Shown: positions 1-9,350 of the stretch, one piece after another
How the letters are laid out: each line of letters starts with the position of its first letter
Numbering within the stretch: position 1 is the first letter of the stretch
NCBI RefSeq assembly: GCF_900182745.1
Contig: NZ_FXTY01000011.1
Location: forward strand, 1-64,000
DNA from: Shimia sagamensis
GTDB taxonomy: Bacteria; Pseudomonadota; Alphaproteobacteria; Rhodobacterales; Rhodobacteraceae
DNA: 64,000 nucleotides
Reading direction: 5' to 3'
Notes under the pieces: model-generated
The model's database searches: none
The model's input: only the letters and a program-made list of their open reading frames with translations
What the model was told of the DNA's origin: nothing
Position numbers and translations under genes: made by a program

Positions 1-1
1 A

Positions 2-196
2 AGGCTGCACGATCGTTTGGATAGCCTGGAACGCATGCTGTCGACCTCTACGGTCACGCCGCAACCTGAATGGCTTTCCGTCACCGCGGCAGCAAACCAT
101 CTGGAATGTTCCGAAAGCACCATCCGCCGCAAAATCGCTTTGGGAGAGTTTCAAGCCAAAGGAAGCGGCAAAAGCAAACGTGTTCGCATCAGTTGA
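2..196 (+). CDS. Partial helix-turn-helix (excisionase-like) protein, 5' end cut off
   Basis: The open frame enters from the left edge and ends with TGA at 194-196, leaving 64 residues. The C-terminal half reads as a short MerR/excisionase-type helix-turn-helix: SVTAAANHLECSESTIRRK followed by a wing-like segment GEFQAKGSGKSKRVRIS. That pattern (helix, turn, recognition helix, basic wing) is typical of proteins that bind DNA at mobile element ends. The N-terminal part (RLHDRLDSLERML) looks like a coiled segment. It lies in the same accessory block as the integrase at 8160-9122, so an excisionase or regulator role is reasonable but inferred. The missing N-terminus prevents a firmer family call. 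Confidence 0.6.
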   Translation, partial: RLHDRLDSLERMLSTSTVTPQPEWLSVTAAANHLECSESTIRRKIALGEFQAKGSGKSKRVRIS

Positions 197-483
197 TGGC
201 ACCTTCAATTATCGCGTCCGTGCTCTGTACGTACTGCCATAACCATCTGCCAGGTGAGAGTGTTCAATTGTCGATCATGGCCGATTGGAATGAGCTCGGT
301 TGCTCAACTCAACCGAAGCGGTTCTCATAACTCGGAACAAGGGCGGAACCGCCACCACTCTCGCCAATGAACTGGGTGAAACCCGGCAGGCCATGATCGA
401 TACACAGTCCCGGTCTTCACCGACTGTATTTGGTGCCAACTGGACCGGAGAAAACTCGACAAGACATACTGGGGGGTGGCGCA

Positions 484-675
484 ATGGCATTGTGCGTCTT
501 TTTTGTTTTTGGCGTTTTGGCCGCTTTCTATTCCGTGCACCAACTTACGCTTGGCACAGAGCTCATGGAGGCCTTAATCTCATTTGTGCTGATCGGTGGC
601 GTTATGCCCCTACTGTTGCTCCTGATCACAGCCGTCCGCGATTACTGGAAATCTCAGAATAGACGCTTTAAGTGA
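484..675 (+). CDS. Small hypothetical membrane protein
   Basis: A 63-residue product starting at the ATG at 484, preceded by a G-rich stretch (ggggggtggcgca) that could serve as a ribosome binding site. Two hydrophobic segments are visible: residues about 2-17 (ALCVFFVFGVLAAFYS) and about 27-47 (ALISFVLIGGVMPLLLLLITA). A basic C-terminal tail (KSQNRRFK) fits two transmembrane helices with a cytoplasmic end. I recognise no family. It converges on the TPR regulator gene that ends at 685. An upstream in-frame start exists at 430 but would add 18 residues without obvious character. Small membrane ORFs are easily mispredicted, so this is a moderate call. Confidence 0.45.
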   Translation: MALCVFFVFGVLAAFYSVHQLTLGTELMEALISFVLIGGVMPLLLLLITAVRDYWKSQNRRFK

Positions 676-684
676 CACCGATTT

Positions 685-2259
685 TCAATGGCTCACCCGC
701 GTGTCTTCCAGGCGTTGGATTTCCGCCATTAGAGCCGTCACCAAGCCTGCTTCATACTTCCGCCGCTCATACATCTCTCTAACGTCAGGCTCCTGCTCCA
801 GAAGCTGCTCATACCTTGCCTGAGCCTCTTCTCTGCGGCCCACAATATTCAATCCAATGGCGGTGGCCGCTAGCAACAGGGGGTTGTTTGCCCCTTCTAG
901 AGTTGGGCTAATCTCTGCTGCCCCAGCCCGATTTCCAACACCAATTTGTGCAAGGAAAACTCCGTAGTTTCTCCAGTTAAGCTGGCCTGGATTAAGTTCC
1001 ATTGACCTCTCAAACATCTCCAATGCATCCGCATAGTGACCAACGGAAACCAAACGAGAGGCAAATCCGCCAAGGATACTCCCGTCAAGTGGCGCGAGCT
1101 TCACTGCAATGTTGCCTGCATTTACCGCCTCGGGGACGCTTCCCATCGCGAACAGCACTGTCATCAGAGCGTAGTGGTTGTTGGCGTCAAATGGATCTAT
1201 ATCGATGGCGGTTCTTGCTGCCTCCATCGCTCGAAACAAAGGATCCCCTGGCATCACATTGCGCTTGTCGCTGTATTCTTCACGATAGATCAAAGCGAGA
1301 TTTGCAAAGAGAGTTGCGCTGCGTTCGCCCTTGCCTATCTGATCTAACAGACAATCACGTGCCTCCGAATGTGCGGCATCCGTTTGGTTTCCAAAATAGG
1401 TCTCCGTCAAGTAGCGGCAACGAAAGACTGGGCTGAATTCACCCCTTCGCATGTAGTCCTTTTCAATCAATCCATTCAGCTGAGCGACACTGGAAAGCCA
1501 TTTCTCAAAATCGCCTTCGTTGTCATGGTGGCCTGGTCCGAAAACAGACGACGAAACCACTTGGCCACTCAGGGAGTGAATAACCTTTCCTTGAATAGTT
1601 GTGCCGTTGTCACCCATCAAAAACACAAGTCTGTAGTCAGCTTCGTCCTTCGAATACTTCTCGAGGATCGTGTGGATGTTTTTAAAGCCGGAAAGTGTTT
1701 CAAGGACCTCTGACATATCCTCAGTTGAGAACTCACCAGAAACACGCACGACCGGACGATCCGGGACTATTCGCTGAGTGTCCATAGATCGAAAATGAGT
1801 CATCAAGAAAGTGAACGATCCAACGATCAAAACGGCAGAACAAACCAAATAGGCTCTCAAACATAGCCGATGCCATCGGCCGCCTTCTTCAGTCTTCGAC
1901 ACGCTTTCGTCCAATGTGCAAATTTCATTAAACTCTGGGCGATAAGTGCCCTTTGGTATCTCGATCCTGAGACCTGTTTGGTGGGTATGATAAAAGATAC
2001 TGAGAGCGGTTCGAAGTCGCGCCATTTCAACTCGAACAATGCTGTCCTCTGACGGGTCAAAATCTGCGCGGCGGTCCAAAACATCGACACCGATCGCGTA
2101 TGCCTTCAGTCGGTCACCGTTTCCTTCAGTTTCAGCCGTCACTAAGTATTCCAGGATCCGATATTTCCTGGATCCTTCTGCAAACTCCTTAGTGCTCCGT
2201 AGGGTCGCAAGATGCTCAGCTATCGCAGCTCTTTGTTCGTCGGAAAAAGGTGTCTTCAT
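685..2259 (-). CDS. Membrane-anchored winged-helix / TPR regulator
   Basis: A 524-residue protein in three parts. Residues about 25-110 form a domain with the pattern GDRLKAYAIGVDVLDR, then DFDPSEDSIVRVEMARLR, then IEIPKGTYRPEF. I know this domain from the N-terminus of many proteobacterial TPR or cyclase-like signalling proteins, where it is thought to be a winged helix. Residues about 132-154 form one transmembrane helix. From about residue 310 to the end there are several TPR-like helix pairs, for example DANNHYALMTVLFAMGSVPE and GQLNWRNYGVFLAQIG. The likely topology is a cytoplasmic DNA- or protein-binding head and a periplasmic TPR sensor. Its promoter side faces the Hint genes, but a regulatory link to them is only inferred from position. 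Confidence 0.7.
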   Translation of the reverse strand: MKTPFSDEQRAAIAEHLATLRSTKEFAEGSRKYRILEYLVTAETEGNGDRLKAYAIGVDVLDRRADFDPSEDSIVRVEMARLRTALSIFYHTHQTGLRIEIPKGTYRPEFNEICTLDESVSKTEEGGRWHRLCLRAYLVCSAVLIVGSFTFLMTHFRSMDTQRIVPDRPVVRVSGEFSTEDMSEVLETLSGFKNIHTILEKYSKDEADYRLVFLMGDNGTTIQGKVIHSLSGQVVSSSVFGPGHHDNEGDFEKWLSSVAQLNGLIEKDYMRRGEFSPVFRCRYLTETYFGNQTDAAHSEARDCLLDQIGKGERSATLFANLALIYREEYSDKRNVMPGDPLFRAMEAARTAIDIDPFDANNHYALMTVLFAMGSVPEAVNAGNIAVKLAPLDGSILGGFASRLVSVGHYADALEMFERSMELNPGQLNWRNYGVFLAQIGVGNRAGAAEISPTLEGANNPLLLAATAIGLNIVGRREEAQARYEQLLEQEPDVREMYERRKYEAGLVTALMAEIQRLEDTRVSH

Positions 2260-3036
2260 AGCGCGAGGCCTTGCTAGGTACGGTTCGTTTGAGCACCTGC
2301 ATTGCTATAACCCGATGTCCAATGGGCTTGCCTGCAAACCACTATCCGGTTCAAAGAAAGTGGCATCTTTTATGATGTTCAAACGAAGCACGTCATATTT
2401 GTCGTACTACGTTTCGCCAAAAGTTCGGCTTCCGCACAGCTATCAACCGGGCACTTAAGAATGCGAGCACTAGAAGCGAACATAGCTTCGCCTGCCCCGC
2501 TCACTCGTGCCCGCCCAAAAGATGGAACGACCAAACTAGACTGCAACCTGATACGATGTTGCCGCAGGGTAAAGCCAATCTGGCGAGTTGCGGGTTACTC
2601 CTATGCGACGAACCGGTACGTACGACCGACATATGTGGGACTTTCTCCCGCAGTCTGGCAGATAACCCCAACTTTCGGGCTCGATGTCCGCGGCGCCCAG
2701 AAGTCAGCCAGGTTGTGCAAGGCCAACTCTCGCACCCCGAAGAGACATCGACTGCGCTATCAGGCGTTGGTTCACACTTTCTCATTTGAAATTTGCATTT
2801 TGGGCGAGCGTCGCTCCGTTGGCAGGTCGTCATTGACGATTGCGGCAAGGCCCGTGAGACAAAACGCTTTTGCCAAGCGTTAAGTACCCCGAGCTAACGG
2901 CAGAGTACTGGCGCGCGCAAAGACACTCGTACTCAAATCAGGCTGAACTACGAACGCCACAATTGGCGATGCAAAAATACCAAGCTCCTCTTTCAGCAAC
3001 GAAACGGGAGCACGTACAGCTGGTGAAAATACGAAA
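2260..3036. other. Long stretch without a convincing gene
   Basis: These 777 bases lie between the regulator start at 2259 and the first Hint gene. Short open frames exist on both strands (for example 2461-2883 plus and 2501-2848 minus). Their translations are rich in Arg, Cys, Ser and Pro with no hydrophobic or motif pattern, and neither has a good ribosome binding site. I see no tRNA-like cloverleaf or strong terminator. It probably holds the divergent promoters of the flanking genes and perhaps decayed coding sequence. Confidence 0.5.
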
Positions 3037-3903
3037 ATGTCACGCAAACAGAACCCGATAATTGAACGTTTTGACAGATATCTCGCGTCCATTGGTCACT
3101 TAAGCGATCCAAACGACTCTCAAAAATCCGCTTCAACACGTCAGACCATGCAAAAGGCTTCAAGTACTGACAAAGGGGTGGCGCATGTCTTGGGTGAGCG
3201 GGGTCCAAATAAGGTCAAGGAAGGCCAGTTGGCGAACTCCGGTAGCTGCTTGGACCTAAATGTGCTGAACTCTTCCCTTGGTGAAGATGAAAACCTGTCG
3301 TCGTGTTTCACTTCGGGCACTCAAATACTCACGCCCATTGGAGAACTTCCAATTGAAGACCTGGAAGTCGGCGACAGCGTCATCACTAGAGACAATGGCA
3401 CAATCGACATTTGCTGGATCGGTCGAAAAAACCTGACAGCCGAAGACCTGGAGCTTAACCCGCATCTTTATCCAATTCTGATCGAAGAAAGCTCTTTGGC
3501 AAACTACTTACCAGATCGCGACACGTGGGTTTCGCCACAGCATAGGATACTCTTCTCCTGCGCGGATGCTCCGTTGCTTTTTGAAGAACCTGAAGTCTTG
3601 GTGGAAGCTCGGCATCTTACCCAACTGAAAGGTGTCCGGAGAGCGGCATGTGACCAAGTTACATACATCTACTTGATGTTTGAAAGGCACGAACTTGTAC
3701 TCTCGAATGGACTATGGAGCGAGAGCCTTCAGCCATGCCTTCAATCTCTCGGCTGTATGGACGACCACCAGCGAACCGAAGTCCTAGAACTCTTTCCAGA
3801 TCTCGCAGCCGATCCAAGCCTAAGCAAATATTCGTCGAATTATCGCTCATTGAACAAATTTGAGACGGACCTGCTTCTTACCCAAGGAACTTCGCTTCTT
3901 TGA
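3037..3903 (+). CDS. Hint-domain (Hedgehog/intein type) protein
   Basis: A 288-residue protein whose centre is a Hint_2-type autoprocessing domain. It begins at Cys90 in the motif CFTSGTQILTPIGELPIEDL, continues with GDSVITRDNG and CWIGRK, and has the conserved SPQHR with His169 followed by hydrophobic ILF. It closes with FERHELVLSNGLWSESLQP, typical for this family in Roseobacters. The nucleophile Cys and the block His are both present, so autoproteolytic chemistry is possible. The first 89 residues are polar and probably disordered. The start at 3037 is weakly supported because no strong ribosome binding site precedes it. A paralogue follows at 4082-5053. The function of these proteins is unknown. 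In the family they often sit on secreted or surface proteins. Confidence 0.75.
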   Translation: MSRKQNPIIERFDRYLASIGHLSDPNDSQKSASTRQTMQKASSTDKGVAHVLGERGPNKVKEGQLANSGSCLDLNVLNSSLGEDENLSSCFTSGTQILTPIGELPIEDLEVGDSVITRDNGTIDICWIGRKNLTAEDLELNPHLYPILIEESSLANYLPDRDTWVSPQHRILFSCADAPLLFEEPEVLVEARHLTQLKGVRRAACDQVTYIYLMFERHELVLSNGLWSESLQPCLQSLGCMDDHQRTEVLELFPDLAADPSLSKYSSNYRSLNKFETDLLLTQGTSLL

Positions 3904-4081
3904 GCGCAAGCACATGCAGGTTTGGGCTGCCCAGAATTCCACGATCCACTCGGGAGCGTCGAAGGGGATTTCTTTGGCGCGGAGGCCGCAATTCGGCGAA
4001 CAGAAATTCAAAATGCGGCTCCAGGACTAAAGACAGCCGTTTGGGACGCGCTTGACGATCAAGCAGCAAAATGAGGTTGAA

Positions 4082-5053
4082 ATGCAAACGAGTTACACCG
4101 TCCAGTTTTACTGCTTGGATCCTCGCAAGGGTATTCCGCCTGGCGATTTCCTTGTGCCAATCAAAATGCAAGTTTCTGTCTCTGAGAACGATGGAACCGT
4201 TGCGGCCATCTCACAGGATGACAACGATCGCCTTCTTCTTGGTATGAAGCTCACCCAGATCTTTGAAGGTGACGTTATTGGTTTGGAAGCGGGCGGAATC
4301 TATAAGGAGGTCGAAGGTATCTCCTTTGTCTTATGCAGCAAAGACGGCGCTCGCTACTTGTTTGCGCCAACGGACGGAAGCATCTTGCAGGGAGCTAGAT
4401 TCCTATGGTCGTCCATCAAAAATCGTTCTGCCCTGGAACAAGTTGTTATTGGCCAAATAACCGTTCCAAGCGCCACACCTGGCAAATTGATTGCAACGCC
4501 ATCGGGGCAAAAACCCGTCACCGAACTCCAAAAAGGCGATCAAGTGATAACTCGTGGTCATGGGATCCAAGAAGTCTCTTGGATTGGCCATCGAAAGATT
4601 TGCGAACGCGAACTGCAATTTTTTCCTAAGTCCGTTCCCGTTTTGATTGGGCAAGGTGCCATGGGTCATGGGCTTCCTGAACGAGATGTCTTGGTCGGGT
4701 CGAGCACACGCGTCCTGCTCACGAACCGCTTACTTAAGCCTGGGCATCGTAAGCCGGGACTACTGGTTGCTGCTCGTTACCTGACGAGTTTTGCCGGCGT
4801 TAGCATTGCGGATTGCAACAGCTTCTGCTGGACGCATTTCAATTTTGATCGTCACGAACTGGTCTTGATTGATGGCATCTGGATAGAAAGCTTCCAACCG
4901 AATGATCCTTCACTGCAGGGCCTTAGCAACGTTCAGAGAGACGAACTATTCCAATTTTTTCCGGAACTACGTCAAAAGCAACCAAGGGCTTCCAACCGGT
5001 GTCATTTGAACAGCGTCAAAAAGGGCGCACTCTACCCATTTCGAACTGATTGA
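4082..5053 (+). CDS. Degenerate Hint-domain paralogue
   Basis: A 323-residue protein resembling its upstream neighbour in its second half: LIATPSGQKPVTELQKGDQV, SWIGHRKI, GLPERDVLVGSSTRVLL and FDRHELVLIDGIWIESFQP. At the position of the catalytic Cys it has Ser130 (VPSATPGKLI), and where the family has SPxHR it reads GSSTR, so Thr209 replaces the key His. The fold is probably kept but self-cleavage is likely lost or altered. Residues 1-120 carry a separate region (QFYCLDPRKGIPPGDFLVPI and onward) absent from the first protein. I chose the ATG at 4082 because gaggttga sits just upstream. A TTG at 4052 would add ten residues. Confidence 0.65.
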   Translation: MQTSYTVQFYCLDPRKGIPPGDFLVPIKMQVSVSENDGTVAAISQDDNDRLLLGMKLTQIFEGDVIGLEAGGIYKEVEGISFVLCSKDGARYLFAPTDGSILQGARFLWSSIKNRSALEQVVIGQITVPSATPGKLIATPSGQKPVTELQKGDQVITRGHGIQEVSWIGHRKICERELQFFPKSVPVLIGQGAMGHGLPERDVLVGSSTRVLLTNRLLKPGHRKPGLLVAARYLTSFAGVSIADCNSFCWTHFNFDRHELVLIDGIWIESFQPNDPSLQGLSNVQRDELFQFFPELRQKQPRASNRCHLNSVKKGALYPFRTD

Positions 5054-5091
5054 GCGGCCAATCCGGCATCATTTTTGGGAAGGGACAACTG

Positions 5092-5175
5092 ATGTCACTT
5101 CTTCCTGCTCCTTCCTCGCCGCTCCAATCGAGTAGAAGACATCGTCTCTACCCCTTCCAGCAATCCGTTTCATAG
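5092..5175 (+). CDS. Possible 27-residue small ORF
   Basis: An ATG at 5092 is preceded by aagggacaact, a fair ribosome binding site, and the frame ends at a TAG at 5173-5175. The peptide is Pro/Ser/Arg-rich (begins MSLLPAPSSPLQSS). It sits between the second Hint gene and the GNAT gene. No family or function is evident and chance occurrence is quite possible. It is listed because the spacing and Shine-Dalgarno-like sequence are better than for most random short frames nearby. Confidence 0.2.
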   Translation: MSLLPAPSSPLQSSRRHRLYPFQQSVS

Positions 5176-5208
5176 CGGCGGAGCAAGTGACTAAACGAGA
5201 GCAAACTA

Positions 5209-5667
5209 ATGATCATCAGACTCGCCAAAGAAAGCGACACAGAGAGTTTGAGAAAAATCCAGAAACAACTGACTGCTTCTGGGAAACACAAACGCTCGGA
5301 TACCGCTGCTTTAATTCTCTACTACTACCTCCAGAACGCCAACAAAGCCCTGTGCTATCTCGCTGAAGAAAAGGGGAAGTTACTAGGCTTCCAGTCACTC
5401 CAAAGAGCCGAATTTGACAACCCATGGGGTGTCAAACCTGGCTGGGGTATTGTTGGCACACATGTCAGTCCTCTCTCTGCGAACAGAGACATAGGGCGCA
5501 TTCTGTTCAACGAAACCTGCAAGGCAGCTTCGATCGCTTCTCTACCAATGCTCGATGCCACTATCGCCGCGGACGATCCGGTGTCTCTCTCGTATTACGA
5601 TGTGATGGGGTTCAAGACCTACCGCACACCGGGCAATCTGATCAGCAAATACTACAAAGTTGATTAG
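5209..5667 (+). CDS. GNAT-family N-acetyltransferase
   Basis: A 152-residue protein with the GNAT layout. It starts with the beta-strand and helix MIIRLAKESDTESLRKIQ, then a hydrophobic strand KLLGFQSL. The acetyl-CoA binding motif A region is GTHVSPLSANRDIGRILFNE (V-x-P followed by a glycine loop and helix). The C-terminal motif is DDPVSLSYYDVMGFKTYRT, typical of phosphinothricin acetyltransferase-like members. The enzyme should transfer an acetyl group from acetyl-CoA to an amine. The substrate cannot be read from sequence. It ends 166 bases before the small peptide gene at 5834 and an AT-rich promoter-like region separates them, so it may or may not belong to that locus. Confidence 0.8.
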   Translation: MIIRLAKESDTESLRKIQKQLTASGKHKRSDTAALILYYYLQNANKALCYLAEEKGKLLGFQSLQRAEFDNPWGVKPGWGIVGTHVSPLSANRDIGRILFNETCKAASIASLPMLDATIAADDPVSLSYYDVMGFKTYRTPGNLISKYYKVD

Positions 5668-5750
5668 GGGAATTGATCTTAAATCAACATGTTAAAGCCA
5701 TTTTTCGTTATTCAACCAAATAATATATGGCCGAACTCCTGTTAATCGAA

Positions 5751-5779
5751 TTGACTCCCCAAAATATTCTCCACACAAT
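5751..5779 (+). promoter_or_regulatory. Putative sigma-70 type promoter for the peptide operon
   Basis: A TTGACT hexamer at 5751-5756 is followed 17 bases later by CACAAT at 5774-5779, inside an AT-rich stretch between the GNAT stop and the peptide gene. Spacing and the -35 match are good and the -10 match is fair. The transcript would start about 45 bases before the peptide ATG. This is a pattern match only. Confidence 0.4.
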
Positions 5780-5833
5780 CTATACGTGCGCACAGTAGAT
5801 TCGATCAACTTAAACGAAAAACTGGAGACTACA

Positions 5834-5965
5834 ATGAACGCAACATCTGCACATTTTACGACCAAACGTGAGACCACTACCGCGAAAAATCCGTCGCTAC
5901 TGGCAGCACTTCTTGGCGCCAAACGAGGATGTACCCACACCTGCTCAGGCGGCTGGAACTGGTAA
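5834..5965 (+). CDS. Candidate RiPP/bacteriocin-like precursor peptide (43 residues)
   Basis: A short gene starting at ATG 5834, with GGAG seven bases upstream (actggagactaca), ending in TAA at 5963-5965. The first 31 residues are Thr/Ala/Lys-rich with a Leu/Ala helix (NPSLLAALLGAKR), as in a leader peptide. The last 12 are GCTHTCSGGWNW, a compact tail with two Cys, two Gly and two Trp, as in a modified or disulfide-bonded core. The good ribosome binding site, promoter-like upstream region, hairpin downstream and exporter-like gene in the same direction fit a ribosomally made secreted peptide. I recognise no family. Alternatives are a toxin, a signal peptide, or a small protein with a structural role. 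The core boundary (after KR or G) is inferred. Confidence 0.65.
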   Translation: MNATSAHFTTKRETTTAKNPSLLAALLGAKRGCTHTCSGGWNW

Positions 5966-5969
5966 ATAA

Positions 5970-5996
5970 AAGTGGCTGCACCTTGTGCAGCCACTT
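5970..5996 (+). terminator. Strong hairpin behind the peptide gene (partial terminator or mRNA stabiliser)
   Basis: A perfect 12-bp stem, AAGTGGCTGCAC at 5970-5981 pairing with GTGCAGCCACTT at 5985-5996, with a three-base loop CTT. It begins five bases after the peptide stop and is followed by gttcgagg, which contains no T tract. Without that tract it is unlikely to be a full terminator. Such hairpins after precursor genes commonly make the peptide message more abundant or stable than the downstream genes. It lies 18 bases before the next ATG and could also mask that gene's ribosome binding region. Confidence 0.7.
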
Positions 5997-6013
5997 GTTC
6001 GAGGAATTGAACA

Positions 6014-6724
6014 ATGTATTGGCCAACAAATTCTCCACCTCCGCCCGACCTACCGCGACAAATACTTCAAGCACATATGCTGACCAGCGCGTACGTCAAT
6101 GAATTCTTGGTGGATCAGCATCCGTACCGAAAAGGACATGTCTGTCCATTCGTAAAGTCCAGCCTTATAATTGAAGGTGTAGTCTTTTCTTTTGTAGAAG
6201 CGACCGACGGAACAGAACTAAAAAATCAGGTCAAACAAAGAATACAGGAGTATCTGGACTTCAAATCAGATTTCCAAGAAACTCAGTCAAGCATGGTAAT
6301 ACTATTTCCAGCCAGTTTCTCAGAGAGAACCTTGGTCAAGCTTCAGCTGAGTTTGAAAGCTTACTGTATAAAAAGAGAAATTATGATTGGGGCGCTTTAC
6401 CCAAACAGTACCGCTCCGAGCCTGCATAGCGAAGATTACTTCCCATTAAGAACGCCAACTCCGACACTTGTTCTTCGCGACCTTGTTCCAATGGACATAC
6501 TGTTCCTCACTCAAGACAGGCATCACTCTGTGAGCAAAATCGGATTTTTAAAGGAATACATCCAGAAATTTTCCGATCACCCGTCAAAAATTGTTCGAGA
6601 CAAGGTACAAGAGGCTCGGCAAGCCCGCCGTGCGTTAAGGCGCTTCTTGATTATAAGAGGTGGAGCTGTGCTCCTAACCATAGCAATCACATCTGTCTCT
6701 TTAGGAGCTTACTTTGCACTATAG
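6014..6724 (+). CDS. Unknown protein with HPYRKGHVCPF motif and C-terminal membrane anchor
   Basis: A 236-residue protein. The start is well supported by cgaggaattgaaca before the ATG at 6014. Near the N-terminus, residues about 36-46 read HPYRKGHVCPF. From memory an H-P-x-R-x-G-x-V-C-P-F pattern marks an uncharacterised family (I believe DUF6875), but I could not check this. The central part alternates strands and helices without known catalytic motifs. Residues about 197-208 are very basic (VQEARQARRALRR), followed by one transmembrane helix at about 210-235 (LIIRGGAVLLTIAITSVSLG). It is therefore probably a cytoplasmic domain tethered to the membrane. It sits between the peptide gene and the ABC exporter gene, so handling, modifying or presenting the peptide is a reasonable guess. 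Confidence 0.6.
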   Translation: MYWPTNSPPPPDLPRQILQAHMLTSAYVNEFLVDQHPYRKGHVCPFVKSSLIIEGVVFSFVEATDGTELKNQVKQRIQEYLDFKSDFQETQSSMVILFPASFSERTLVKLQLSLKAYCIKREIMIGALYPNSTAPSLHSEDYFPLRTPTPTLVLRDLVPMDILFLTQDRHHSVSKIGFLKEYIQKFSDHPSKIVRDKVQEARQARRALRRFLIIRGGAVLLTIAITSVSLGAYFAL

Positions 6725-6731
6725 AAGTCAC

Positions 6732-8090
6732 ATGCTAACGCTCGCCGTTGTTCTAATTTTTCTTCAACAAATCGCGCTGGCGTTTTCGACATTTTTCATT
6801 GCCCGTGCCGGAACAAGCGTTGCGACCGGTGACTCCAACTTGGCAATCGACTATGTGGTTCTATTTTTCGTAACCGCGCTCGTTGGCTTTGGCCTCAACT
6901 CTTTTTCTGAAGTTTGTGCTGAAAAATCAAAAAACGTAATTCTAGCAAGGTACTACAGCTCTACACATTTGCTTCTCAAAGCTAGGCAGCTATCCAACGT
7001 GAGACAGATGAGATCAAAGTATCATAGCTGGATGGCAGGTGAGGTTGCGCCCACGATCGACGAATTTGTCAGCTTTTTTCTAATGAGCATCAACTCAGTT
7101 CTCAATGTCTGCCTAACACTACTGGTTTTTTCGGCAGTTTTTAGCATTGAGGTCTCGATCATAGTTCTTGTTCAGCTTATTGCTTCAGCTTTGTTGATTT
7201 CCGTCATTAGAAAAACGGTTTCAGGTCTGGGAACCCAACTTCAAGAGAAAAAGCTTGAGAGCAATCAGTATTTAGAGACTTTCTGGAATTCTCACTTCAT
7301 GATGTCACCGCCCATGGGCGAAAAGCTTCAGAATATACAATTTCAAAAACTTCAGGGGTTCTTCGATACACGAGTAAAATACAAAATTTGGGAGCAGTCC
7401 ATCGCTGCCGCACCAATTCTTCTCTCTGTGGGATCTCTACTGGTCTATATCAGTGCATTTCAAAGCTGGTCGGCTGTGGAAATAGGTGCTGCGGTTGCCG
7501 TCTTACCTAGGACTTTGCAACTACTCGGGAATGCTCACACCCTTACAGTCATAGGAACCAAATTCTTTGAAATCCGGCAAAAACGCCGCAACTTGTCACA
7601 CTTTTTGACGGATTCGCAGGATGTGGACTTTTCGGCGTTCGCTTCCCTGGATGGGCTAAGTGTCACTGATGTTGGCAGGGGAAGCCTTGTTGATCCAAAA
7701 GAATTTCTGGATCGGGTCAGCAAAGGAGCAATAACACAGGGTCGTTTTCTTGTGACCGGTGAGAACGGCAGCGGAAAATCGACGTTTGTGAAGCGAGTGT
7801 ACCTAGCCAGCAACAAGGCTATTCTTGTGGAGCCCACAACAAATTTTACCCCTGAAAACGGTGGAAACCAATCAACCGGCAACCTTTTCCTAGCTAGTTT
7901 GCAAACAATTCTAGGAGAAGGCCCTGATGTTGTAATCCTTGATGAGTGGGATGCAAACTTGGACGAAAACAACACTCAAATTATTGACGAGAAACTTCAG
8001 CACTTTTCCGGATCTCACCTGGTTCTTGAGGTACGGCACAAAATCACAAGCCACAACGTCGTAAAAAGCCGGCAAAGAGAAGTTTCCTGA
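6732..8090 (+). CDS. ABC exporter-like protein with a minimal ATPase domain
   Basis: A 452-residue protein. Residues 1 to about 260 carry several hydrophobic helices (for example LAVVLIFLQQIALAFSTFF and LTLLVFSAVFSIEVSIIVLV) in the arrangement of an ABC-B type exporter membrane domain. The ATPase part is unusual. Walker A is GENGSGKST (343-351) and Walker B is VVILDEWDANLD, starting at about residue 400. Only about 50 residues lie between them instead of roughly 120, and no LSGGQ signature or clear Q-loop is visible. A switch-like His is present in VLEVRHK. The protein may work with another ATPase or use ATP differently. Start choice: the ATG at 6732 is used. A TTG at 6714, with aggag just upstream, would overlap the preceding gene by 11 bases and is a real alternative. 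Confidence 0.7.
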   Translation: MLTLAVVLIFLQQIALAFSTFFIARAGTSVATGDSNLAIDYVVLFFVTALVGFGLNSFSEVCAEKSKNVILARYYSSTHLLLKARQLSNVRQMRSKYHSWMAGEVAPTIDEFVSFFLMSINSVLNVCLTLLVFSAVFSIEVSIIVLVQLIASALLISVIRKTVSGLGTQLQEKKLESNQYLETFWNSHFMMSPPMGEKLQNIQFQKLQGFFDTRVKYKIWEQSIAAAPILLSVGSLLVYISAFQSWSAVEIGAAVAVLPRTLQLLGNAHTLTVIGTKFFEIRQKRRNLSHFLTDSQDVDFSAFASLDGLSVTDVGRGSLVDPKEFLDRVSKGAITQGRFLVTGENGSGKSTFVKRVYLASNKAILVEPTTNFTPENGGNQSTGNLFLASLQTILGEGPDVVILDEWDANLDENNTQIIDEKLQHFSGSHLVLEVRHKITSHNVVKSRQREVS

Positions 8091-8159
8091 TTTCTGGGAA
8101 CCTGTCTCGAACCAATGGGTGTCGCGCAGAACTAACATGCTTTGCGCGATCCCCTCCCC

Positions 8160-9122
8160 TTATCCAAGACGTCGCGCTAGGCTTTCTGCACTTTCATTGT
8201 AGTACGTGAGCAGCTGGGAAAGGTTTCGATGCCCAACCATTCGTGCCAGATCCATGACATCCAGCTTTTTGGCCAGGTGCGTGATCGCGTAGTGTCGAGA
8301 GTCATGAAAAGTTAGATCGTGCACCCCCGCGGTGTCGCGTGATTTGCGGAATAGAACATCCAACTGGCGCGACGTAAGCCCAAAGACAGGATCCTGCTCC
8401 TGCAAATCCTGCAATAGCTTGATCGCCACGGAGGACAGCGGCACCTCTCTGGACGTACCATTCTTGGTTACAGGCAGTGTGGCGACCCTGCGGTCCAGAT
8501 CAACGCGCTTCCAGGTCAATCCAACGATTTCCCCTGCCCGCATGGCCGTCTCGCCAGCAAACAGAAAGGCGTGAAACGCTCTCGCCGTTGCTTTGGTCAA
8601 ATCGCTGCCCGCGACGTACTGCATGCGCTCAATTTCTTCAGCTGAAGGCAGCCTGTCTCTGGCTGCTGATTGGGGCGGCTTGCGAACATCCTGAAGTGGG
8701 TTTTCGGACATAAGGCCCCATTCTTTTCGCGTCACATTGAACACAGAGGACAGCAGAACCATTTCCCGCCGAACAGACGCTCCTGTCACCTCGCGAAGCC
8801 GACGATCCCGATAGTCAGCCAAATCCCCAGCGGAGAGTTCACCCAAACTGATACCAGCGATTTTATCTCGTTGGATCTTCTCCAGCCTCACGACCTCCCA
8901 ACGATGCCCCTTTTTGGCGGGGCTCACTTCCCTGGCGTAGCGGTCAAGAACGTCACCCAACTGGGTTTTGGCCGCGACTTTATCGCTGTGCAGAATCTCA
9001 TACTCAGTGCGAGCCGCCCAATCTTTGGCCTGCTGTAAGGTAGGCCAGACTTTCGATTTTCGTTTGCCCTTGCGAGATACCTCTGCCCGATACCCCGATT
9101 TGAGCTTTCTGAACGTAGCCAT
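8160..9122 (-). CDS. Tyrosine site-specific integrase of the tRNA-Leu island
   Basis: A 320-residue phage-type tyrosine recombinase. Residues 1-40 form the arm-binding region (MATFRKLKSGYRAEVSRKGK), about 50-140 the SAM-like core-binding domain, and about 160-320 the catalytic domain. The active-site set is visible: R195 (AMRAGEI), K220 (VTKNGTS), H273 and R276 (HDSRH), H298 (GHRN) and Y307 or Y308. The box reads HDSRH rather than the commoner HDLRH. The gene begins 143 bases from the 3' end of the tRNA-Leu gene, the classic arrangement for an integrase that uses the tRNA end as attachment site, with its island extending to the left. It converges with the ABC gene that ends at 8090. Confidence 0.93.
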   Translation of the reverse strand: MATFRKLKSGYRAEVSRKGKRKSKVWPTLQQAKDWAARTEYEILHSDKVAAKTQLGDVLDRYAREVSPAKKGHRWEVVRLEKIQRDKIAGISLGELSAGDLADYRDRRLREVTGASVRREMVLLSSVFNVTRKEWGLMSENPLQDVRKPPQSAARDRLPSAEEIERMQYVAGSDLTKATARAFHAFLFAGETAMRAGEIVGLTWKRVDLDRRVATLPVTKNGTSREVPLSSVAIKLLQDLQEQDPVFGLTSRQLDVLFRKSRDTAGVHDLTFHDSRHYAITHLAKKLDVMDLARMVGHRNLSQLLTYYNESAESLARRLG

Positions 9123-9264: not shown

Positions 9265-9350
9265 TGGTGCCCAAGGAGAGACTCGAACTCTCACGCCCGT
9301 GAAGGCGGGGGATTTTGAATCCCCTGCGTCTACCATTCCGCCACTTGGGC
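9265..9350 (-). tRNA. tRNA-Leu (anticodon CAA)
   Basis: Read on the minus strand, the gene runs from GCCCAAGTGG at 9350 to GGGCACCA at 9265, with encoded CCA. The acceptor stem GCCCAAG pairs with CTTGGGC. The anticodon loop TTCAAAA lies in the stem GGGGA/TCCCC, giving anticodon CAA at 9317-9315, which reads UUG leucine codons. A long variable arm (class II) and a GTTCGAGTC T-loop are present, as expected for tRNA-Leu. The 86-base length is normal. The 3' end is the likely attachment site of the integrase encoded at 8160-9122. No second copy of the 3' end was found by eye inside this window. Confidence 0.95.

Follow-up and report, generated by a model that had tools for sequence, protein, structure and literature searches.

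A block of three genes on the forward strand of a Shimia sagamensis contig (NZ_FXTY01000011.1) probably constitutes a cassette for a ribosomally synthesized and post-translationally modified peptide (RiPP). The 64,000 nt from position 1 of this contig were analyzed and are referred to as the window. In the reading that we favor with reasonable confidence, a DUF6875 heme enzyme oxidizes or crosslinks the C-terminal W-x-W end of a small precursor peptide, and a shortened ATP-binding cassette (ABC) exporter exports the product. This rests on the gene order and its recurrence, the W-x-W end of 3/3 peptides, the family membership of the second protein and the presence or absence of the three genes as one block. 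A previous reading of the same DNA made from its letters only (the sequence-only reading) had proposed a RiPP-type locus of a peptide, a "VCPF protein" and an exporter, an interpretation that the recurrence and the W-x-W end support.

The cassette and the W-x-W end of its peptide

The block contains the peptide gene, the DUF6875 gene and the exporter gene in that order (Table 1), each preceded by a plausible ribosome-binding site. The arrangement described before, with a peptide, a perfect 12-bp hairpin, a second protein and an exporter gene in one block, was confirmed, and the exporter reading frame overlaps the DUF6875 gene by 11 nt. The promoter-like region proposed upstream did not hold up, as one site was found and 0.8 are expected by chance. 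The window peptide terminates in GCTHTCSGGWNW, and the C-terminal W-N-W is predicted to be the modified site.

A tblastn search with the DUF6875 protein matched 52 of 72,556 plasmid records, and four regions from the best 20 of these 52 were opened. The two best matches were plasmids of Moraxella osloensis (NZ_CP069433, 40%) and Methylophaga thalassica (NZ_CP143310, 34%), gammaproteobacteria of different orders. Both plasmid loci (L027 and L028) have the order peptide, hairpin, DUF6875, ABC, with an exporter relative within 8 bp after the DUF6875 gene that is 33% and 28% identical to that of the window, respectively. The sequence-only reading had named loss of the peptide from loci that keep the other two genes as the finding that would speak against it; 2/2 other loci have a W-x-W peptide directly upstream, and a short precursor thus lies beside the candidate modifying enzyme in 3/3 cassettes across taxa. 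The other two opened regions, from Streptomyces (L029) and Rhizobium (L030), did not contain such a cassette.

The plasmid-encoded peptides comprise 40 aa ending in TPWRW and 52 aa ending in GGWSW, and W-x-W directly before the stop (W-N-W in the window, W-R-W and W-S-W on the plasmids) was found in 3/3. When the three peptides are aligned, the invariant positions are only M1, S5, T9, W41 and W43. The specificity of this end was assessed in a census of distinct 30-110-aa frames, collected over 393 kb (the window plus 59 loci), each frame starting at its first ATG, GTG or TTG: 3/3,249 end in W-x-W, and all three are the cassette peptides. With a looser spacing (two tryptophans near the end) 25 frames passed, 22 of them outside the cassettes, and lowering the limit to 20 aa added one W-x-W frame of 27 aa in L028, distant from the cassette. 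As a control, the upstream ~260 bp of six non-cassette DUF6875 genes (L029, L030, L033-L036, a set holding the close pairs L030 with L036 and L034 with L035) yielded no W-x-W frame (0/6).

A sequence search with the 43-aa peptide matched 209/390 genomes (its own included) at E up to 1. Homologues claimed on this ground were rejected as chance matches, the best other E-value among the matches listed being 0.001, and L004-L022, the loci from this search, contained no 30-110-aa frame ending in W-x-W. Disulfide or other cysteine-based chemistry was dropped because the Moraxella peptide has no cysteine. The gene for that peptide is missing from the PLSDB gene table of its plasmid, a table that is itself incomplete.

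The second protein belongs to the DUF6875 family

The second protein had been taken for a member of an unknown family; in fact, it scores well over the Pfam cut-off for DUF6875 (PF21780; 93.4 vs 24.5 bits). The available text of PMC13307353, a 2026 paper citing a preprint, describes DUF6875 proteins as heme proteins oxidizing L-tryptophan and names C7 hydroxylases among them. According to the same text, ZigI carries the heme motif of the L-tryptophan C7 hydroxylases and, as deletion of zigI led to a demethoxylated product, is expected to be a C7 hydroxylase. The modifying role suggested before for the VCPF protein is backed in that the family is stated to consist of heme-dependent tryptophan oxidases; that the window protein acts on the peptide is our extension. 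An alignment of 10 DUF6875 proteins, which include two pairs of close relatives, shows no variation (10/10) at R39, G41, C44, P45, K115, R155 and D161, numbered as in the window, among other columns. In AglA, a YqcI/YcgG protein, Cys44 is the heme ligand and Arg/Lys are located at the propionates (available part of PMC12866846). By analogy, Cys44 of the VCPF motif is a candidate heme thiolate ligand. The window protein shows weak similarity to the YqcI/YcgG family around this cysteine (E 0.015, below the Pfam cut-off). The membrane anchor proposed earlier holds for the window copy, which has a hydrophobic C-terminus (residues 207-236), and not as a general trait, since by hydropathy only 1/3 orthologues has one.

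DUF6875 genes also occur in other surroundings. On the Streptomyces plasmid (L029) such a gene lies among tryptophan-biosynthesis genes, and on the Rhizobium plasmid p42d (L030:5851-7153) it is followed by a YbaK/EbsC family gene, a pair to which that of L036 appears similar by eye.

The exporter family and the exchange of the enzyme

The third gene, previously described as ABC-exporter-like, was confirmed as such by a six-helix domain and a nucleotide-binding domain (NBD) with Walker A, C-loop, Walker B and His switch, the Pfam ABC_tran match staying under its cut-off (17 vs 25 bits). An N-terminal C39 peptidase domain is not present, as the first helix starts from residue 6 of 458. A structural model was obtained with a pLDDT of 73; of the 50 PDB matches listed for it, the best by E-value is PCAT1 and the best by TM-score McjD (0.52). 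The C-loop is located 30 aa past Walker A, and the Walker B/D-loop reads LDEWDANLD. Usually this spacing is longer, with a helical NBD subdomain in between. Because the C-loop follows so soon after Walker A, this subdomain seems, judged by sequence, to be largely missing. A comparison of the window exporter with nine others placed the C-loop S[TS]G 29-35 residues past Walker A in all save one, where it lies at 59; DEWxx[NH]LD, a pattern for the Walker B/D-loop, is matched by 9/10, the exception being G1436.

Three of the ten exporters are partnered by DUF6875 and a W-x-W peptide, three by an alpha-ketoglutarate-dependent HExxH enzyme (aKG-HExxH) and a MIA[YF] peptide, and four by neither. The DUF6875-linked exporters form one group with moderate support (93/92). 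The HExxH-linked ones come from Photorhabdus (L042), a Bdellovibrionales metagenome-assembled genome (L044) and an Acinetobacter plasmid (L067), and their partner enzymes match the aKG-HExxH peptide beta-hydroxylase TIGR04267 with 59.7, 41.9 and 55 bits vs a cut-off of 40, L044 being barely over it. In these cassettes a short peptide carries MIA[YF] among its last 22 residues; of the census frames, 4/3,249 have this motif and three of them are the HExxH cassette peptides. Each of the two kinds of enzyme thus comes with its own peptide motif, exporter and layout being retained, a pattern to be expected of an enzyme that acts on the peptide. The Photorhabdus cassette has an additional methyltransferase-like gene.

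The block is the cargo of a tRNA-Leu island

The block has a GNAT gene on one side and, on the other, an integrase gene adjoining tRNA-Leu, and its G+C content is 45%; the window as a whole has 55% and positions 1-5667 have 51%. Around tRNA-Leu 25 genomes of the genus match (the window's own included), and four others were opened. One relative, G423 (L061), has the same island, with 82-87% identity in the pieces flanking the block site and ~85 bp where the window has the 2.5-kb block; L060, L062 and L063 align on the tRNA side only. Since the relative's island is without the whole block, the three genes were gained or lost together. Integrase, tRNA-Leu(caa) and the block-free island of the relative also bear out the earlier placement of the unit on a tRNA-Leu island. 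The GNAT gene (5209-5667) and the Hint-domain genes were excluded from the cluster, since they are still found in the relative, which lacks the cassette. The Hint-domain genes encode two adjacent Hint_2-domain proteins (3037-3903 and 4052-5053), both kept in that relative, whose island also contains the stretch of a TPR-repeat protein encoded on the minus strand (685-2259).

Distribution in other genomes

Within the family, DUF6875 matches were found in 2/394 genomes, one being the window's own. The match in L002 (33% over 63 aa, E 6e-5) was discarded as spurious, since by eye it runs antisense to a peroxiredoxin-like frame. PF21780 exceeded its cut-off in 2/289 genomes of the class and 7/398 of the phylum (own genome included in each), and no cassette was seen at the other loci, viewed to at most ~1.5 kb on each side. 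Weak matches in L025, L038 and L039 look by eye like DUF1415 proteins and were rejected. The family of G1068 (48 genomes) gave no match at 1e-8 in a scan that had no positive control, and no relative was present in the viral contigs and phages scanned. A scan of genome contigs with DUF6875 gave none that was confirmed, and the same scan with the exporter gave at least five loci; L045 (Rothia) was dropped from it as an ABC-F-like ATPase by eye. An exporter profile run on 99 genomes of the Xenorhabdus locus's family retrieved, besides the Xenorhabdus locus itself, one other (L065/L066). The counts exclude a second Acinetobacter plasmid (H36) and a broken exporter copy in L032. The latter is located on Moraxella osloensis pNP7-3 (L032:5001-7604), where an IS3-type element interrupts the gene and the plasmid has no DUF6875 match.

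Table 1. Features of the window and related cassettes or exporters at other loci
Feature	Position	Strand	Basis or remark
Precursor peptide, 43 aa, C-terminus GGWNW	5834..5965	+	ORF; ATG 5834, stop ends 5965; GGAG upstream of start
Perfect 12-bp hairpin between precursor and maturase genes	5970..5996	+	12 pairs, loop 3
DUF6875 protein, 236 aa, putative heme-thiolate tryptophan-oxidizing maturase	6014..6724	+	PF21780 E 2.3e-26
ABC half-exporter, 458 aa, six long helices, shortened NBD, no peptidase domain	6714..8090	+	TTG start after AGGAG
Cargo block without counterpart in island of same-genus relative	5671..8184	.	Edges approximate; its three genes on + strand
Tyrosine integrase of island; carrier, outside peptide system	8160..9122	-	PF00589 E 2e-22; also kept in relative
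tRNA-Leu(caa) at edge of island	9265..9350	-	
MIA[YF] peptide, HExxH and shortened exporter cassettes	L042:3033-6350, L044:2941-5360, L067:3443-5942		
Exporter relatives without recognized peptide or enzyme	L041:4995-6323 (Xenorhabdus), L066:5160-6500, L031:3920-5248 (Psychrobacter plasmid)		

The hairpin and alternative explanations

The 71-nt hairpin stretch of the window folds with -29 kcal/mol (z -4.9), and 0/200 shuffled sequences were equally good. Comparable hairpins are present in L027 (z -5.6) and L028 (z -3.7), and the Acinetobacter HExxH cassette (L067) has one after its peptide gene too (z -3.4). The hairpin follows the stop codon by 4 nt in the window, 17 nt in L027 and 14 nt in L028. 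It is likely a partial terminator or an mRNA stabilizer.

Three other explanations were weighed. An unlikely one has the peptide working unmodified, as a bacteriocin or signal, with DUF6875 acting on free tryptophan or in immunity and only the exporter being concerned with the peptide. The gene neighborhoods of DUF6875 in Streptomyces (tryptophan biosynthesis, L029) and Rhizobium (YbaK, L030) fit such a role, whereas the main feature common to the three peptides is the two tryptophans at the end, the stated target of the family, and the motif differs where the enzyme is HExxH.

Leader peptides regulate by attenuation in the trp and tna systems. By the same token the short frame might be a regulatory leader peptide whose W-x-W codons and hairpin sense tryptophan and control a tryptophan oxidase and a small-molecule exporter, which we consider quite improbable. 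The tryptophan codons directly precede the stop, with the hairpin only a short distance beyond, the stem end or tail in L027 and L028 is T-rich and terminator-like, and in the cases reported in the available text of PMC13307353 the enzyme family acts on free L-tryptophan. However, the peptides are 40-52 aa long, each with its own ribosome-binding site. The window hairpin is present in both the minimum-energy and the centroid fold of 5780-6030, and a scan revealed no terminator-like T-tract on the + strand; further, in the Acinetobacter HExxH cassette a peptide that lacks W-x-W is followed by the same layout with its hairpin, and three exporter relatives accompany peptide hydroxylases. That the block is defense or toxin-antitoxin cargo without a secreted peptide is very improbable: it lies on an integrative island and has relatives on plasmids, and its ABC protein drew ATPase-type matches in PADLOC (mad3 the best, 8.5e-12), but the best mad3 stretch (382-434) spans ATPase motifs, PADLOC gave no match for the peptide or DUF6875, and the six-helix exporter fold together with the peptide hydroxylase partners of its relatives indicates peptide export.

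Several observations weigh against the RiPP cassette. The W-x-W and MIA[YF] motifs were picked after the peptides had been seen, the three peptides scarcely resemble each other in their leader parts, and the cassettes are few (at least three in total). DUF6875 genes occur elsewhere in non-peptide settings (L029, L030), and four of ten exporters (L031, L041, L043 and L066) have neither enzyme nor motif: nine neighboring proteins gave no TIGR04267 match, and HE..H occurs near them only in one L041 frame antisense to a gene. The exporters of L041, L066 and L031 may act on their own in immunity or resistance. Within the block itself, no gene for a protease, an electron donor or immunity was recognized. 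Heme binding by the window protein is carried over from the family-level statement of PMC13307353, on which it rests because no solved structure matches DUF6875 by sequence and the single-sequence model (pLDDT 52) was too poor for a structure search.

Proposed mechanism

If the locus is a RiPP cassette, the ribosome would make a 43-aa precursor in which the N-terminal part serves as leader and the C-terminal W-N-W is modified, and the hairpin would keep the precursor message in excess over those of enzyme and exporter. The DUF6875 protein, as a heme enzyme with a thiolate ligand that is anchored in the membrane in the window copy, would oxidize one or both tryptophans of W-x-W, either by indole C7 hydroxylation or by further oxidation that links the two residues. 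A peptide containing 7-hydroxytryptophan is thus one conceivable product. Its export would fall to the ABC half-exporter, whose translation is probably coupled; the leader would have to be removed by a protease from outside the cassette, because a peptidase domain is missing from the exporter. The product may have an antibacterial or signaling role, and the block would move as cargo of the tRNA-Leu island.

In darobactin the modified W-N-W carries an ether from Trp1 C7 to the Trp3 beta-carbon (available text of PMC12995848 and PMC8694152). Since a family that oxidizes tryptophan at C7 meets a W-N-W peptide here, a darobactin-like link is worth considering. We tentatively suggest that DUF6875 joins the two tryptophans of the C-terminal W-x-W, by a Trp C7-O-Trp ether as in darobactin or by some other W-to-W link, and that the self-contained cassette, in which DUF6875 and HExxH can replace each other next to one family of exporters, has spread among proteobacteria on small plasmids and islands. 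Such a reaction would be a heme-based, radical-SAM-independent route to one of the two rings on which the shape of darobactin rests. More generally, the cassette would represent a new bacterial way to tailor ribosomal peptides, in which a heme family newly tied to tryptophan chemistry joins the RiPP enzymes with a searchable substrate rule, C-terminal W-x-W, and the shortened ABC exporter family could mark small RiPP cassettes that are easily missed. No publication linking DUF6875 or P422 to RiPPs, or on W-x-W RiPPs, was found; the P422 preprint lay outside the search and may hold such a link, and novelty is therefore provisional.

Comparison with known systems

As stated before, no lanthipeptide, lasso or YcaO enzyme is evident: none was detected by Pfam (8 proteins) or NCBIfam (6 proteins) in the cassette and its flanks, the part scanned. 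With PCAT1 and McjD the modeled exporter shares the six-helix half-exporter fold, at TM-scores of only 0.38-0.52, and differs from them in having no peptidase domain and a C-loop STG(Q/N) ~30 aa past Walker A. The aKG-HExxH RiPP clusters (TIGR04267; available part of PMC12636437) likewise combine a short precursor and an oxidative enzyme; their enzyme is an aKG-dependent HExxH protein, here paired with MIA[YF], and the link to the exporter comes from the three cassettes described here, not from the clusters of that paper.

To the cytochrome P422 tryptophan oxidases and ZigI (available text of PMC13307353) the second protein is related by Pfam family and by the invariant cysteine and basic residues. 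ZigI, from zigralone biosynthesis, is expected to act on a tryptophan-derived indole in a terpenoid cluster, whereas the window gene stands together with those for a W-x-W peptide and an exporter, and its product has a membrane anchor. AglA, the YqcI/YcgG heme hydroxylase to which the window protein is only weakly similar, acts on arginine (accessible text of PMC12866846). Darobactin is made by the radical SAM enzyme DarE and its core, WNWSKSF, runs on past W3 (PMC8694152 and PMC12995848, as far as available), while the genes of the cassette are those for the peptide, DUF6875 and the ABC protein only, with no DarE-type radical SAM enzyme. Nevertheless, the daropeptide clusters described in the same texts resemble the cassette as small Gram-negative clusters of a precursor, one oxidative enzyme and transport genes.

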